A stretch of DNA of 40,340 nt from Nitrospiria bacterium (GTDB lineage Bacteria; Nitrospirota; UBA9217): the NCBI GenBank assembly GCA_919902495.1, contig CAKKRC010000083.1, positions 1 to 40,340 of the forward strand. The letters run 5' to 3'. This document shows, one piece after another, positions 24,876-29,822 of this stretch. Position numbers and translations under genes: made by a program. The notes beneath the pieces are model-generated. The model worked only from the letters and a program-made list of their open reading frames with translations. It searched no databases and was not told where the DNA came from. How positions within the stretch are numbered: position 1 is the first letter of the stretch; each line of letters starts with the position of its first letter.

Positions 24876-25361
24876 ATGAACCCACTGGAAGTGGCCAGTA
24901 AAATGGAGACCGACGCCATAAAATTCTACACCGAAGCCGCGGCGAAAACAAATTACGAGGCCGGTAAAAAGATGTTCCTGAGCATTACGGAGGACGAAAA
25001 ACGGCATCTCGTCATGATCTCGGACCTTATCAAGGGCATGAACATCACGATCAATGATGTAAGTCCCATGAAACGGGTCAAGACGATCTTTGAGTCGATG
25101 AAGGACCAGATGATGAAGAAGGTGGCCGCAAGCAAGGACGAACTGGATGCCTTCAAAATAGCGATGCAAATGGAGAAGGAAGGAAAGGCGTTTTATCAGA
25201 AGTCCCTTGCAGCCGCAACCACGGATAAAGAGAAGGCCTTGTTCAAGCGGCTCATCGAGGAGGAGCAGCAGCACTATGAGATCTTCGAGAACACCTACAG
25301 CCACCTGTCGGACACCGGGAACTGGTTCCTCTGGGAGGAGCGGGGTGTGATCGAAGGATAG
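24876..25361 (+). CDS. Rubrerythrin-like ferritin-fold di-iron protein
   Basis: A 161-residue four-helix protein. Di-iron ligand pattern: an N-terminal Glu in EVASKMETDAIKFYTEAA, then ITEDEKRHLVMISDL (ExxH), a second Glu in QMEKEGKAFYQKSLAA and LIEEEQQHYEIFENTYSHL (ExxH). There is no C-terminal rubredoxin CxxC domain, so it is the short type. Rubrerythrins reduce peroxide or store iron in anaerobes. The end DTGNWFLWEERGVIEG is typical of this subgroup. It heads a three-gene run with an unknown 91-residue protein and a WrbA-like protein. Confidence 0.9.
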   Translation: MNPLEVASKMETDAIKFYTEAAAKTNYEAGKKMFLSITEDEKRHLVMISDLIKGMNITINDVSPMKRVKTIFESMKDQMMKKVAASKDELDAFKIAMQMEKEGKAFYQKSLAAATTDKEKALFKRLIEEEQQHYEIFENTYSHLSDTGNWFLWEERGVIEG

Positions 25362-25403
25362 AGCAGGAACGGCCCCTATTGACATCAGAGAGGAGTGATC
25401 TCT

Positions 25404-25679
25404 ATGAAATACACCATTGTCGCATTGAAAGAAAAGATCCGGGAGATGTACCCGGACATCGAGAAGCACAAAGTGAGCGTCGGCATTACGTTCAACGAAG
25501 AAAAGGACGCCTACGTCCTGAAGTTCAAGCGGGGAAAGCAGGAACTGGTCACGCAGATCGACAAGAGCGACGCCGATGACTGTATGAACAATATCCGGTG
25601 CCTGCACCTCGGCATCAAGGTGGACCAGTTCGTCGGGAACTTCGAAGCGCGAGAGGAATTCGGGAGGAAAGTGGCATGA
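25404..25679 (+). CDS. Small conserved-looking protein of unknown function
   Basis: A 91-residue protein, start ATG 25404 after an AGAGAGGAG SD. It is charged, with an alpha-beta look: [61 protein letters not shown]. Cys occur at [10 protein letters not shown]. Its stop overlaps the WrbA-like start by 4 bases (ATGA), implying tight coupling and a shared oxidative-stress or redox role. I do not recognise it. Confidence 0.7.
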
Positions 25680-26305
25680 CGGACAAGGCGCGGGTCCAGG
25701 TCATTTTCTACAGCATGTACGGTCATATCTACCGCATGGCCGAGGCCGTTATTGAGGGAGCGAGAACGGTGCCGGGCGTCGAAGCAGGCCTGTTCCAGGT
25801 GCCCGAGCTGGCGCCGCCGGACGTACTCGAAAAGTCAGGAGCAGCGGCAGCTCGCAAGGCCTTCGCCCATGTGCCGTTCGCGAAGGTGGACCAGATGGGC
25901 GAGGCCGACGCGGTCATATTCGGCACACCGACACGGTTCGGGAATATGTGCGCCCAGATGCGGAACTTCATGGACCAGGCCGGCGGGCTATGGATGAAGG
26001 GCGCATTGATCGGCAAAGCGGGTAGCGTGTTCACCTCTTCGGCCACCCAGCACGGCGGGCAGGAGACCACCATCACGAGCTTTCATACGACCCTCCTGCA
26101 CCTGGGAATGGTGATCGTAGGGGTTCCCTACTCCGAGCAGCGTCAGATGACCATGGCGGAGATCAGTGGAGGCTCGCCGTACGGCGCATCGACCATTGCC
26201 GGCGGCGACGGATCCCGTCTGCCCAGCGAGAACGAGCTTGCCATCGCACGGTTCCAGGGCAAACACGTTGCTGAGATAGCGAAAAAACTGAAAGGCGTAA
26301 CGTAG
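25676..26305 (+). CDS. WrbA-like flavodoxin-fold NAD(P)H:quinone oxidoreductase
   Basis: A 209-residue flavodoxin-like protein of the WrbA family. FMN phosphate-loop: [17 protein letters not shown]; then [51 protein letters not shown] and the late [12 protein letters not shown]. WrbA reduces quinones by two electrons to avoid semiquinone radicals, an oxidative-stress function. It overlaps the upstream gene by 4 bases. A terminator, shared with the minus-strand peptide, lies just after it. Confidence 0.92.
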
Positions 26306-26334: not shown

Positions 26335-26360
26335 GAGCTCGGGGAGGGAACCCCGAGCTC
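26335..26360 (-). terminator. Intrinsic terminator after the small peptide gene
   Basis: A perfect 10-bp stem GAGCTCGGGG/CCCCGAGCTC with a 6-base loop. The minus strand continues with TTGTTTTTCC, so it is a good terminator for the peptide transcript; it also follows the WrbA-like gene on the plus strand. Confidence 0.85.
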
Positions 26361-26390: not shown

Positions 26391-26453
26391 TCAGCAGGAG
26401 CTTTTACACTTGCAGGTCGTTGCCGTGGTCTTTGCCACCTTTTTGATCGACAT
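26391..26453 (-). CDS. Candidate RiPP precursor peptide (20 aa, Cys-rich C-terminus)
   Basis: A 20-residue peptide: a basic N-terminal leader-like half (MSIKKVAKTTATT) and a C-terminal core CKCKSSC. It has a very strong SD (AAAGGAGG, 7 bases before ATG) and its own TTGACA-N17-TACTAT promoter at 26482-26510. A perfect terminator begins 31 bases beyond its stop. It lies 40 bases downstream of a SPASM radical SAM maturase gene on the same strand, the usual position for precursor peptides. The three Cys at alternate spacing fit thioether (sactipeptide/ranthipeptide-like) cross-links to the Lys, Ser or Thr neighbours, but the chemistry is inference. It is too short for routine gene callers. I cannot identify a known family. 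Confidence 0.72.
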   Translation of the reverse strand: MSIKKVAKTTATTCKCKSSC

Positions 26454-26481
26454 GGTGTCGCCTCCTTTCATCGTCAGCTAA

Positions 26482-26510
26482 ATAGTAACAATTCTAATCC
26501 TGCTTGTCAA
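26482..26510 (-). promoter_or_regulatory. sigma70-type promoter of the small peptide
   Basis: On the minus strand a perfect TTGACA, 17-base spacer and TACTAT, with the -35 inside the last codons of the radical SAM gene. The expected start is about 22 bases before the peptide ATG. This would let the peptide be made in large excess over its maturase. Confidence 0.75.
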
Positions 26511-27636
26511 TGACGCCGTAGAGGGAACAGCGGTACAGGTCCTTTCCGGCCGCACGGTCCACCTGTTCAGCGCGATATCGGCACCCGCCCCGGCAGGCCT
26601 CCAGGTACTCGCACTTGCAGCCGAGGCTCTCAAGCCGGATGGGCCGCACGCGCTCCCAGCAGGTTCGCAGGCCTTCGCTGAGGGAGCCAACGGCGCGGTC
26701 GCCGTAAAATGTGCATTTAGCCGCCGTTCCATCGTACAGGACCGCCATAAGATGGAGGCCGCAGGCGTACCCTCTGCCGGTTGAATGCATGCCTCCACCG
26801 TACCCGTAGCCGAGATACTTGCCGCCTATCTCGGGAGCTACGGCGAGCTCGCGGTTGTCCCGCAGCCTTCCGTCAACGCAGGGGACGTCGACGGTCCAGT
26901 CCTTGACACCCAGCGACCTGAAGAGCTCTTCCATGGCGTCAAAGTCCCCGAGGTTGCCGGGATGGACCATGGTCGATACGGAGACCTCGAAGCCGGCATC
27001 CAGAGCGCGGCGAAGCGCATTCAGGGCGAGATCATAGGTCCCGTTTCCGCGAAGCGCATCATGGGAGCTCTGCATCCCGTCGATGCTCACCTGGATCTCA
27101 TGCACCTTGAGCCGGACCAGGAGATCCTTCTTCAGAAGCACGCCGTTCGTGAACAGCACCTTTCTGAGGTACAGGTCCGGAAGCATCTCATTGATCTCGT
27201 CGAACCGGGAGTGAAGGAGCGGCTCGCCCCCCGTAAGCAGGACCCGAAGGCCCTGCATCTCCTCGAAATCCTTCAGTACCGAGCGGACCTGGACCGTCGA
27301 CAGCTCGCGGTCATTGACGTCGCCGAGATAGCAGTGCCTGCACCGGAGGTTGCATTTGCTGGTGAGCTGAAGCTCGAGGTAGCGCAGCGAGGGGTCCGGC
27401 GAGGGTCTCAACGCGGGGCGGGCGACCGTGACCCGTTCCCTCGTCAGGAGACCTTCATCCAGGCAATAATCGATGAAGGCGCTGTCATTATTTTCACACC
27501 CGCCTTCGGATGCGCAGGAGCTGAGAAAGCGAAATGAGTCCTCATCGAGCTCATAGAGCTCATCCTTGGCAAGCTGATAGACCGACGGGGTCTCAAGCCA
27601 TTTCAGCGACGCCTGTCTCGCCAGAGAAAACGCCAT
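26494..27636 (-). CDS. SPASM radical SAM peptide maturase
   Basis: A 380-residue radical SAM enzyme. Residues 1-70 look like a winged-helix/PqqD-like peptide-recognition domain (SLARQASLKWLETPSVYQLAKDELYELDEDSFRFLSSC). The SAM-binding 4Fe-4S motif is CNLRCRHC (Cys95, Cys99, Cys102), then LLTGGEPLL. The C-terminal SPASM region has Cys292, 308, 326, 340, 342, 348, 352 and 370, enough for two auxiliary Fe-S clusters. This is the architecture of RiPP maturases that make thioether or C-C cross-links in Cys-rich peptides. A 20-residue Cys peptide lies directly downstream, and a divergent Cys-rich protein gene lies upstream. A TATAAT -10 at 27643-27648 ends 6 bases before the ATG, so the mRNA is likely leaderless. 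Confidence 0.88.
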   Translation of the reverse strand: MAFSLARQASLKWLETPSVYQLAKDELYELDEDSFRFLSSCASEGGCENNDSAFIDYCLDEGLLTRERVTVARPALRPSPDPSLRYLELQLTSKCNLRCRHCYLGDVNDRELSTVQVRSVLKDFEEMQGLRVLLTGGEPLLHSRFDEINEMLPDLYLRKVLFTNGVLLKKDLLVRLKVHEIQVSIDGMQSSHDALRGNGTYDLALNALRRALDAGFEVSVSTMVHPGNLGDFDAMEELFRSLGVKDWTVDVPCVDGRLRDNRELAVAPEIGGKYLGYGYGGGMHSTGRGYACGLHLMAVLYDGTAAKCTFYGDRAVGSLSEGLRTCWERVRPIRLESLGCKCEYLEACRGGCRYRAEQVDRAAGKDLYRCSLYGVIDKQD

Positions 27637-27683: not shown

Positions 27684-28034
27684 ATGCCTCGGGAAAAAAA
27701 AGGAAGGGTGGACACAACGCTCTGCCATAATTTCTGTCAGTACTACAAGCCGGGCAAGAACGAAGAGCTTGCGTGCCAGGGTTATGTCGTTGTCCATCGG
27801 CTCATTGAAAAGGGCAGGCACGTATCCCAGGATAAGCCCCGGCGAACGGCGGCACTTGATGCAAGGACCATTGAAGGCCTGAAAGGACGCGTGTGCGCGG
27901 CCTGCTCCTTCCGCGCGGCAGATTGTGATTTTATCTTGAGCGGCGGAACGGCGTCTCCCTGCGGCGGGTATGTGCTGCTGTTCCACCTCTTGGGCAGCGG
28001 CGACCTGACGCTTGAGGAATTGGAAGAAAGATGA
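27684..28034 (+). CDS. Cys-rich protein divergent from the radical SAM maturase
   Basis: A 116-residue protein. It has a clear pattern of Cys clusters: TTLCHNFCQYYKPG (CxxxC), then ELACQGY, RVCAACSFRAADCDFIL (CxxC, C) and ASPCGGYVLLFHLL, with a charged C-terminus (GSGDLTLEELEER). Such clusters suggest one or more Fe-S or Zn sites. It is transcribed divergently from the maturase, from a leaderless promoter. I do not recognise the family. Its tail (Y, nine residues, GDL) loosely recalls the NCBIfam name 'Y_X(10)_GDL', but the spacing differs by one and I could not check it. It may be a partner in peptide maturation or sensing; that is inference. Confidence 0.7.
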   Translation: MPREKKGRVDTTLCHNFCQYYKPGKNEELACQGYVVVHRLIEKGRHVSQDKPRRTAALDARTIEGLKGRVCAACSFRAADCDFILSGGTASPCGGYVLLFHLLGSGDLTLEELEER

Positions 28035-28091: not shown

Positions 28092-29822
28092 ATGGACTAT
28101 ACGATCAAGGTCGGCGGTGAAGCAGGGCAGGGGATTCAGACCATCGGCGAAACGCTGGGCCGGGTATTTTCCCGCGGCGGATATCACGTTTTTACGAACC
28201 AGGAATACGAGTCCCGGGTCCGCGGCGGACATAATTTCTACCAGATACGGTTCTCCGACCGGCCGGTCATGGCGCCGAAGGACGCGGTGGACATCATCGT
28301 GGCCCTGGACAAGGAAAGCATCCTGCTCCACGCCCAGGAGCTTACGTCCCGCGGGCAGATCATCTACGACGCCGATGCCCTGAAGGAAAAACATGACACG
28401 CAGGCATTCCTCGATATTCCGTTCGCGAAGCTGGCCGTCGAGCACGGCGGCGACAAGATCATGGCGAACACGGTCGCCACGGGCGCGGTGCTCGGCATGC
28501 TCGGCATGGAGCTTGACATCCTGATGGGGATCATTGCCGACACGTTCGGAAAGAAGGGCGAGAAGGTCATCACCGCGAACAAGAACGCCGCGCTGGCGGG
28601 ATACGATCACGCGGTAAAGGGTTGTCTCAAATGCAGCTTTGCCGTCGCTCCCGTCGAGAAGGCCGAACCGCGCATGCTGGTCGGCGGGACCGAGGCCATC
28701 GCCCTGGGCGCCCTGGCATCGGGGGTAAAGTTCTACTCGGCCTATCCTATGACGCCGTCCACAGGCATCATGAACTATCTCGCGGGCAAGGAAAAGGAAT
28801 ACGGCATGGTCGTGGAGCAGGCCGAGGACGAGATCGCGGCCGTCAACATGGCGCTGGGCGCGTCGTTCGCGGGGGTGCGCGCAATGACCGGCACGTCGGG
28901 CGGCGGTTTCGCCCTGATGGTAGAGGGCGTTTCCCTTGCCGCCATCACGGAAACACCGATCGTGATCGCCATGGGACAGCGGCCGGGCCCGGCGACAGGC
29001 CTTCCCACCCGGACCGAACAGGGCGAGCTGCATATGGTGCTGCACGCGGGCCACGGCGAGTTCCCGCGGTTCATCTTTGCGCCGGGCACGCCCGAGCAGG
29101 CGTTCTTTCTCACGAACAAGGCCTTTGATCTGGCCGAAAAGTATCAGGTTCCGGCCTTCATCCTTTTCGATACCTATCTCTCCGATTCCCAGTGGACCTA
29201 TAAGGGATTCGATCTCGAGCGGATCAGGACGACGGACTATCGCCTCCGGGGGGAGGCGTTCCAGGCACGGGCCGTCTACAAGCGCCACGCATACACGGAG
29301 AGCGGGGTGAGCCCCCTGGCCGTGCCCGGCGACGCGAGGCACCTGGTGGTGACGGACAGCGACGAACACGATGAGGAAGGACATATCACCGAGGACGCTG
29401 CTGTCCGCGTCAACATGGTGGAGAAACGGCTCTTCAAGAAGCTGCCGCGCATGCAGGAAGAGATCGCCCCGCCGTTCCTCTATGGGGACCACAATCCTGA
29501 TATTGTCATCACCGGCTGGGGTTCGCTGTACGGCCTCCTGCGGGAAGCCGTGGACGAGCTGTCCAAGAACTACGGCATTGCCCTGCTGCACTTCAGCGAG
29601 CTCACACCGTTCCCCGGCACGGAGAAATTCGACTACCTCAGGCTTCTCTCCAAGGCGCAGCTTTCCATCTGCGTCGAGCAGAACGCCACGGGACAGCTCG
29701 CGAGATTGATGAGGACCGAGACGGGTTACGAGTTCGGCGCGCTGCTCAACAAGTATGACGGCCGGCCGTTCACGGTCGAGTCGCTGGTGAAGAACCTGAA
29801 GGGGCTGATCAGGAAGCTGTAG
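28092..29822 (+). CDS. korA: 2-oxoacid:ferredoxin oxidoreductase, fused gamma-alpha subunit
   Basis: A 576-residue subunit with an N-terminal gamma domain (DYTIKVGGEAGQGIQTIGETLGRVFSRGGYHVF, about residues 1-190) fused to the alpha domain starting at GGTEAIALGALASGVKFYSAYPMTPSTGIMNYL. It has the conserved VVEQAEDEIAAVNMALGASFAGVRAMTGTSGGGFALM block. With korB it oxidises 2-oxoglutarate (or another 2-oxoacid) to an acyl-CoA with ferredoxin reduction. I chose ATG 28092 (SD TAGAGGTG); the in-frame extension upstream has no SD. A palindromic repeat interrupts the operon between korA and korB. Confidence 0.92.
   Translation: MDYTIKVGGEAGQGIQTIGETLGRVFSRGGYHVFTNQEYESRVRGGHNFYQIRFSDRPVMAPKDAVDIIVALDKESILLHAQELTSRGQIIYDADALKEKHDTQAFLDIPFAKLAVEHGGDKIMANTVATGAVLGMLGMELDILMGIIADTFGKKGEKVITANKNAALAGYDHAVKGCLKCSFAVAPVEKAEPRMLVGGTEAIALGALASGVKFYSAYPMTPSTGIMNYLAGKEKEYGMVVEQAEDEIAAVNMALGASFAGVRAMTGTSGGGFALMVEGVSLAAITETPIVIAMGQRPGPATGLPTRTEQGELHMVLHAGHGEFPRFIFAPGTPEQAFFLTNKAFDLAEKYQVPAFILFDTYLSDSQWTYKGFDLERIRTTDYRLRGEAFQARAVYKRHAYTESGVSPLAVPGDARHLVVTDSDEHDEEGHITEDAAVRVNMVEKRLFKKLPRMQEEIAPPFLYGDHNPDIVITGWGSLYGLLREAVDELSKNYGIALLHFSELTPFPGTEKFDYLRLLSKAQLSICVEQNATGQLARLMRTETGYEFGALLNKYDGRPFTVESLVKNLKGLIRKL

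Follow-up and report, generated by a model that had tools for sequence, protein, structure and literature searches.

We report a putative RiPP system of Nitrospirota in which a short precursor peptide would be modified at its CKCKxSC end by a radical SAM/SPASM enzyme, a reading to which we assign a probability of about 0.82. The peptide is protein-coding, deeply conserved, and coupled both to the enzyme and to a protein with seven cysteines. The kind of system, a radical SAM/SPASM RiPP, is known. Judged by sequence comparison, the precursor, its length, the family of the maturase and the seven-Cys partner have no match in the models and literature that we searched, and the whole looks like a hitherto undescribed way of modifying a peptide, with its role in housekeeping and not in antibiosis. 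The window, i.e., the whole stretch of 40,340 nucleotides that we analysed, encodes the following features.

26391..26453, minus strand: ORF of the 20-residue precursor peptide, MSIKKVAKTTATTCKCKSSC, with its ATG at 26453 and its stop ending at 26391
26468-26461, minus strand: Shine-Dalgarno sequence of the peptide, AAAGGAGG, read from the sequence, at a position of low entropy over 88 loci
26482..26510, minus strand: promoter of the peptide, TTGACA-17-TACTAT, overlapping the 3' end of the maturase gene
26335..26360, minus strand: intrinsic terminator after the peptide, with a 10-bp stem that also serves the convergent plus-strand gene
26494..27636, minus strand: radical SAM/SPASM maturase of 380 residues, recognised by Pfam Radical_SAM (PF04055), orthologue motifs and fold
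27442..27636, minus strand: RRE-like (PqqD-like) N-terminal domain of the maturase, about residues 1-65, assigned from the structural model and Foldseek
27684..28034, plus strand: seven-Cys protein of 116 residues, divergent from the maturase, a likely third component according to its homologues and co-occurrence

The first-pass annotation of this sequence had claimed a 380-residue radical SAM ORF with CNLRCRHC and eight Cys in a SPASM-like C-terminus, followed on the same strand, 40 bases beyond the maturase stop, by a 20-codon ORF with a Shine-Dalgarno sequence, a promoter and a terminator. We found every one of these elements, with CNLRCRHC at residues 95-102 and the eight Cys after residue 290. 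The likely third gene, encoding the seven-Cys protein at 27684-28034, had been missed.

The peptide gene recurs widely in the phylum. A DNA pattern for CKCKxxC followed by a stop matched in 118 of 396 Nitrospirota genomes, belonging to 71 of 170 genera, and the same pattern reversed, used as a control, gave one match in these 396 genomes. A scan that started from enzyme homology only, and demanded of the peptide just two Cys near the end and a Shine-Dalgarno sequence, retrieved in most loci a 20-residue ORF ending in CKCKxSC after the enzyme and on the same strand. The distance between the two genes ranged from 24 to 202 nt in 65 cases (all loci). Homologous loci thus carry the ORF and conserve its core, the point on which the first-pass annotation had made its claim depend. 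Among 99 distinct copies of the peptide, 88 have 20 residues and 11 have 19, with the consensus M-x-I-[KR]-K-V-x-K-x4-T-CKCK-[SG]-S-C and a steady length of 19-20 residues. The Cys-rich end is the best-conserved part, the conservation of its motif Cys and Lys being partly imposed by the search pattern. Positions outside that pattern were also conserved in the distinct 20-residue ORFs: I3 and K5 in 86 of 88, T13 in 83, and S19 in all 88.

The substitution pattern of the peptide is that of a protein-coding sequence. Over the 88 ORFs, the entropies at first, second and third codon positions were 0.55, 0.54 and 1.38 bits, and the 3' flank was near random (about 1.95 bits). The reading as an RNA element was rejected on the variation at third codon positions and the lack of any Rfam match. 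Expression signals accompany the gene much more often than expected from shuffled sequence. Of the 66 peptides linked to the enzyme, 48 had a promoter-like site with a score of 9/12 or more ahead of them (3 expected) and 28 had a terminator behind them (0.6 expected); the corresponding values for peptides unlinked to the enzyme were 11 of 31 (1.8 expected) and 14 of 31 (0 expected). The peptide is short and cationic, and has neither a conserved aromatic residue nor Asp; the copy in G167 (L081), for example, reads MIKKVSGKPMPTCKCKGSC. Variants of the core with His in place of Lys, CKCHSSC and CKCHQSC, were found in two distant genera (L185, L186, L187, L188), and two genomes, G032 (L097) and G040 (L098), carry a second, unlinked copy of the peptide.

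Enzyme and peptide were strongly coupled across the 396 genomes. With an enzyme presence threshold of E at most 1e-50 and the peptide pattern described above, a first count gave 111 genomes with both, 7 with the enzyme only, 7 with the peptide only, and 271 with neither (Fisher 5e-80). Once the CKCHxSC variants (G024, G047, G189, G309) were included and two matches due to chance (G314, G337) were taken out, these numbers became 115, 3, 5 and 273 (phi 0.95), which are not counts of independent events, because inheritance is mostly vertical. The lack of a peptide in G347, and probably also in G009, is due to a contig that ends at that point. In G293 the enzyme is present and the peptide was looked for and not found. 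In G305 the enzyme occurs as fragments, one of them at a contig edge; this genome (L094:1-7850) has a tandem pair of peptides with a C-terminal fragment of the maturase before each copy. Two near-complete genomes, G103 (L191) and G283 (L119, L193), keep an intact-looking peptide gene with no detectable maturase orthologue, and these count against the RiPP reading.

Where the two genes are linked, as they are in most cases, the peptide comes directly after the enzyme. It is encoded far from the enzyme gene in families f16, f5, f20 and f27, where both genes persist. The enzyme, the peptide, a TPR protein, ispE and prs are consecutive in f11, and the peptide of f16 is still upstream of TPR, ispE and prs (the last two named by sequence recognition). 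This arrangement suggests a move of the enzyme gene, with the peptide staying in place. Inheritance, as judged from sequences, is mostly vertical: the enzyme tree required 19 changes of family label, with a minimum of 16 and a mean of 55 for shuffled labels. Our survey of the distribution covered Nitrospirota genomes and, beyond them, plasmids and viral contigs. The peptide had no match in the plasmids and viral contigs, and the plasmid matches of the enzyme were partial, with less than 40% identity among the matches listed; we rejected a mobile element on these grounds. A contig search with one protein query matched only close Nitrospirota relatives. The gene dsrA was present in 177 of the 396 genomes and associated with the enzyme with a phi of 0.55, below the coupling between peptide and enzyme. 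Among the dsrA-positive genomes, 100 had both enzyme and peptide, 2 the enzyme only, 4 the peptide only and 71 neither. Sulfite reduction was discarded as the function of the system, given this phi of just 0.55 and a family (f26) that has dsrA without the system.

The CX3CX2C motif of the maturase (C95, C99, C102) was invariant in 80 orthologues. Seven of the eight C-terminal Cys were conserved in at least 79 of these 80, following the SPASM pattern C-x10-G-x4-C...C-x1-C-x5-C-x3-C...C; this spacing is the C-x1-C variant, and the match to the Pfam SPASM profile was weak and found in 5 of 46 members. The structural model (pLDDT 92.6) had SkfB, CteB and SuiB as best fold matches in the PDB, with anSME and PqqE also among the matches. 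SkfB, CteB and SuiB all mature RiPPs and combine an RRE with a radical SAM core and domains for auxiliary clusters; SkfB makes the sporulation killing factor, and SuiB forms a C-C bond whereas the other two form thioethers. The domain architecture of our enzyme is indicated by this predicted fold. The modelled N-terminal domain has four strands followed by two helices, and searching it in isolation with Foldseek returned TbiB1, SuiB and lasso peptide synthetase B1 first, with weak E-values (0.06-0.4). Sequence profiles of the domain gave no RRE match. The PqqD-like (RRE) N-terminus proposed in the first-pass annotation has support from fold comparison, at these weak E-values, and none from sequence profiles. 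Two Cys of this domain, C41 and C58 (27463-27516, minus strand), recur in 70 and 75 of the 80 orthologues, a conservation that a recognition function does not account for.

The protein encoded divergently from the maturase has seven Cys that are invariant in 46 homologues, with the pattern C-x3-C-x12-C ... C-x2-C-x6-C ... PCGG. We found no known family for it and no relative in the PDB. In a single-sequence search, 105 genomes had both this protein and the enzyme, 13 the enzyme only, 6 the seven-Cys protein only, and 272 neither. A profile search recovered it, partly as fragments, in 4 of the 13 enzyme-only genomes (in G033 just upstream of the enzyme and on the same strand), and in none of the 51 tested genomes without enzyme or peptide. 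The protein is thus present in about 109 of the 118 enzyme-bearing genomes, and its distribution makes it a likely third component of the system. Its gene adjoins the enzyme gene throughout f1 and in some members of f21, f23, f33 and f5, and is located elsewhere in f11, f16, f20 and f27.

Comparison with described systems places this one close to several of them and within none. Among the NCBIfam models listed, none reached its cut-off with the maturase of the window. The lead towards geopeptides was not sustained. Such systems also have a SPASM enzyme beside a small peptide, but the model TIGR04280 gave 31.5 bits for a cut-off of 400, beneath the scores of unrelated radical SAM families, and we rejected it. 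SCIFF or ranthipeptides (CteA/CteB) share with our system a Cys-rich precursor, a radical SAM/SPASM enzyme with an RRE (a putative one in ours), CteB being one of the best fold matches, and a broad, conserved distribution within one lineage. Yet, SCIFF has about 45 residues with six Cys, instead of 19-20 with three, and belongs to another lineage; the sequence families are unrelated beyond the radical SAM core and no NCBIfam model scores. The wide spread of SCIFF in Clostridia has been taken as an argument against an antimicrobial role (PMC8326336). Relative to SkfA/SkfB and other sactipeptides, SkfB is the closest PDB entry by structure as well as by sequence, and Cys is the probable sulfur donor, but the precursor is much shorter here, export and immunity genes are lacking, and the maturase scored 60.3 bits with the SkfB model (cut-off 300) and 55.4 with that of StsB (cut-off 625). 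PQQ (PqqA/PqqD/PqqE) and mycofactocin (MftA/MftB/MftC) resemble our system by a very short precursor, an RRE (putative in ours) and a SPASM enzyme, a conserved core and a cofactor-like distribution. They differ in that our peptide has neither Glu-Tyr nor a C-terminal Val-Tyr, and ends in a Cys-based SSC; the mycofactocin model gave 79.5 bits for a cut-off of 265. CKCKSSC, three close variants of it and the word geopeptide were absent from the literature searched, in which nothing relevant on Nitrospirota and radical SAM RiPPs turned up either.

The enzyme most probably modifies this 19-20-residue peptide, and the modification is very probably located at the CKCKxSC end. We infer a leader/core division and acceptor residues as follows. 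The precursor would be transcribed separately from the enzyme, and its basic N-terminal half (M-x-I-[KR]-K-V...) would be bound by the RRE-like N-terminus. The CX3CX2C cluster may then generate a 5'-deoxyadenosyl radical that abstracts a hydrogen from a residue of TCKCKxSC. As the peptide contains neither Asp nor a conserved aromatic residue, the candidates left are Cys, Ser, Thr and Lys. By analogy with the family, and in keeping with the fold, the SPASM clusters would hold a Cys thiolate in place for the ring to close; a Cys held at the auxiliary cluster could close onto carbon to form one or more thioether rings, the candidate acceptors being the near-invariant S19 and T13, or K17. A Cys thioether is the likeliest product, given the three invariant Cys, the lack of a conserved aromatic residue or Asp, and the presence of two thioether formers among the best folds, and we hold it to be slightly better than an even bet. 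What counts against it is that the third of the best fold relatives, SuiB, makes a C-C bond. The weak RRE hits of the isolated domain, together with its lack of a profile match, speak against the RiPP reading as a whole, and so does the fact that we found no protease that would remove a leader.

The same enzyme and peptide could instead be engaged in another chemistry: oxidation of Ser or Cys as by anSME, decarboxylation at the C-terminal Cys as described for MftC (PMC8326336), epimerisation, or a C-C bond at Lys. The peptide has a fixed length and invariably ends in Cys, S19 is invariant, and anSME and PqqE are among the fold matches. SPASM enzymes are known to perform all of these reactions. 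Yet, a change at a single residue would need fewer than the three invariant Cys of the last seven residues, and both of the best-matching structures belong to enzymes that form thioethers, so that we regard such chemistry as possible, with the odds against it. An unmodified microprotein binding metal or sulfur through CxCx3C, with the enzyme acting on another substrate, e.g., the seven-Cys protein, is improbable. CxCx3C can bind soft metals, the seven-Cys protein co-occurs with the enzyme nearly as well as the peptide does, and CutA1 immediately precedes the seven-Cys protein in f11 and f16. Against this, the peptide is more tightly coupled to the enzyme than the seven-Cys protein is, it is mostly encoded directly after it, and the RRE-like domain of the maturase favours a peptide substrate.

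We consider a bacteriocin, or another secreted antagonistic peptide, very improbable, even if the nearest fold, SkfB, produces a killing factor and the peptide is short and cationic. The core is constant over 71 genera instead of diversifying, inheritance is mostly vertical, plasmids and viral contigs had no match to the peptide, and we found no conserved transporter or exporter, protease or immunity gene near the system. Least probable of all is a regulatory leader peptide, i.e., an attenuator responsive to Cys or Lys and no substrate. Its end is indeed rich in these two residues, and in f16 the ORF precedes the TPR-ispE-prs string with a stem-loop between. However, the downstream genes vary between families, terminators directly follow the ORF (in the window no same-strand gene comes before the terminator), I3, K5, T13 and S19 are also conserved, and the enzyme co-occurs almost perfectly even when unlinked.

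For the modified peptide that we favour, the surroundings give some indication of a role. In f1, f21 and f23 these include rubrerythrin, superoxide dismutase, nitroreductase, a flavodiiron-type protein, 2-oxoacid:ferredoxin oxidoreductase, a flavodoxin-fold NADPH-dependent FMN reductase-like protein and a second radical SAM/SPASM protein (24876-26305 and 28092-29822 on the plus strand of the window; L091, L092, L095, L120, L123, L125). As oxidative-stress or redox genes recur as neighbours in several families, they weakly suggest redox or metal homeostasis. The position of CutA1 beside the seven-Cys protein in f11 and f16 also speaks for the favoured reading. The product probably remains intracellular and may act in redox or metal metabolism together with the seven-Cys protein, a role to which we give slightly less than even odds.

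Tiny peptide genes routinely escape annotation. This one is present in about 30% of the sampled Nitrospirota species, nearly always with the enzyme, and therefore points to an old, non-antibiotic role. The pair is a directly testable enzyme and substrate, with a minimal precursor and an undescribed partner protein, and opens a way to the study of peptide-derived cofactors in a phylum most of which is uncultured. More tentatively, the system may produce a vertically inherited, phylum-level cofactor or metal/redox carrier derived from the peptide and working with the seven-Cys protein, as a core function of anaerobic Nitrospirota. If so, a precursor of 19-20 residues served by a dedicated radical SAM enzyme would be among the shortest known for RiPPs, and its product would be similar in nature to PQQ or mycofactocin, yet based on sulfur.
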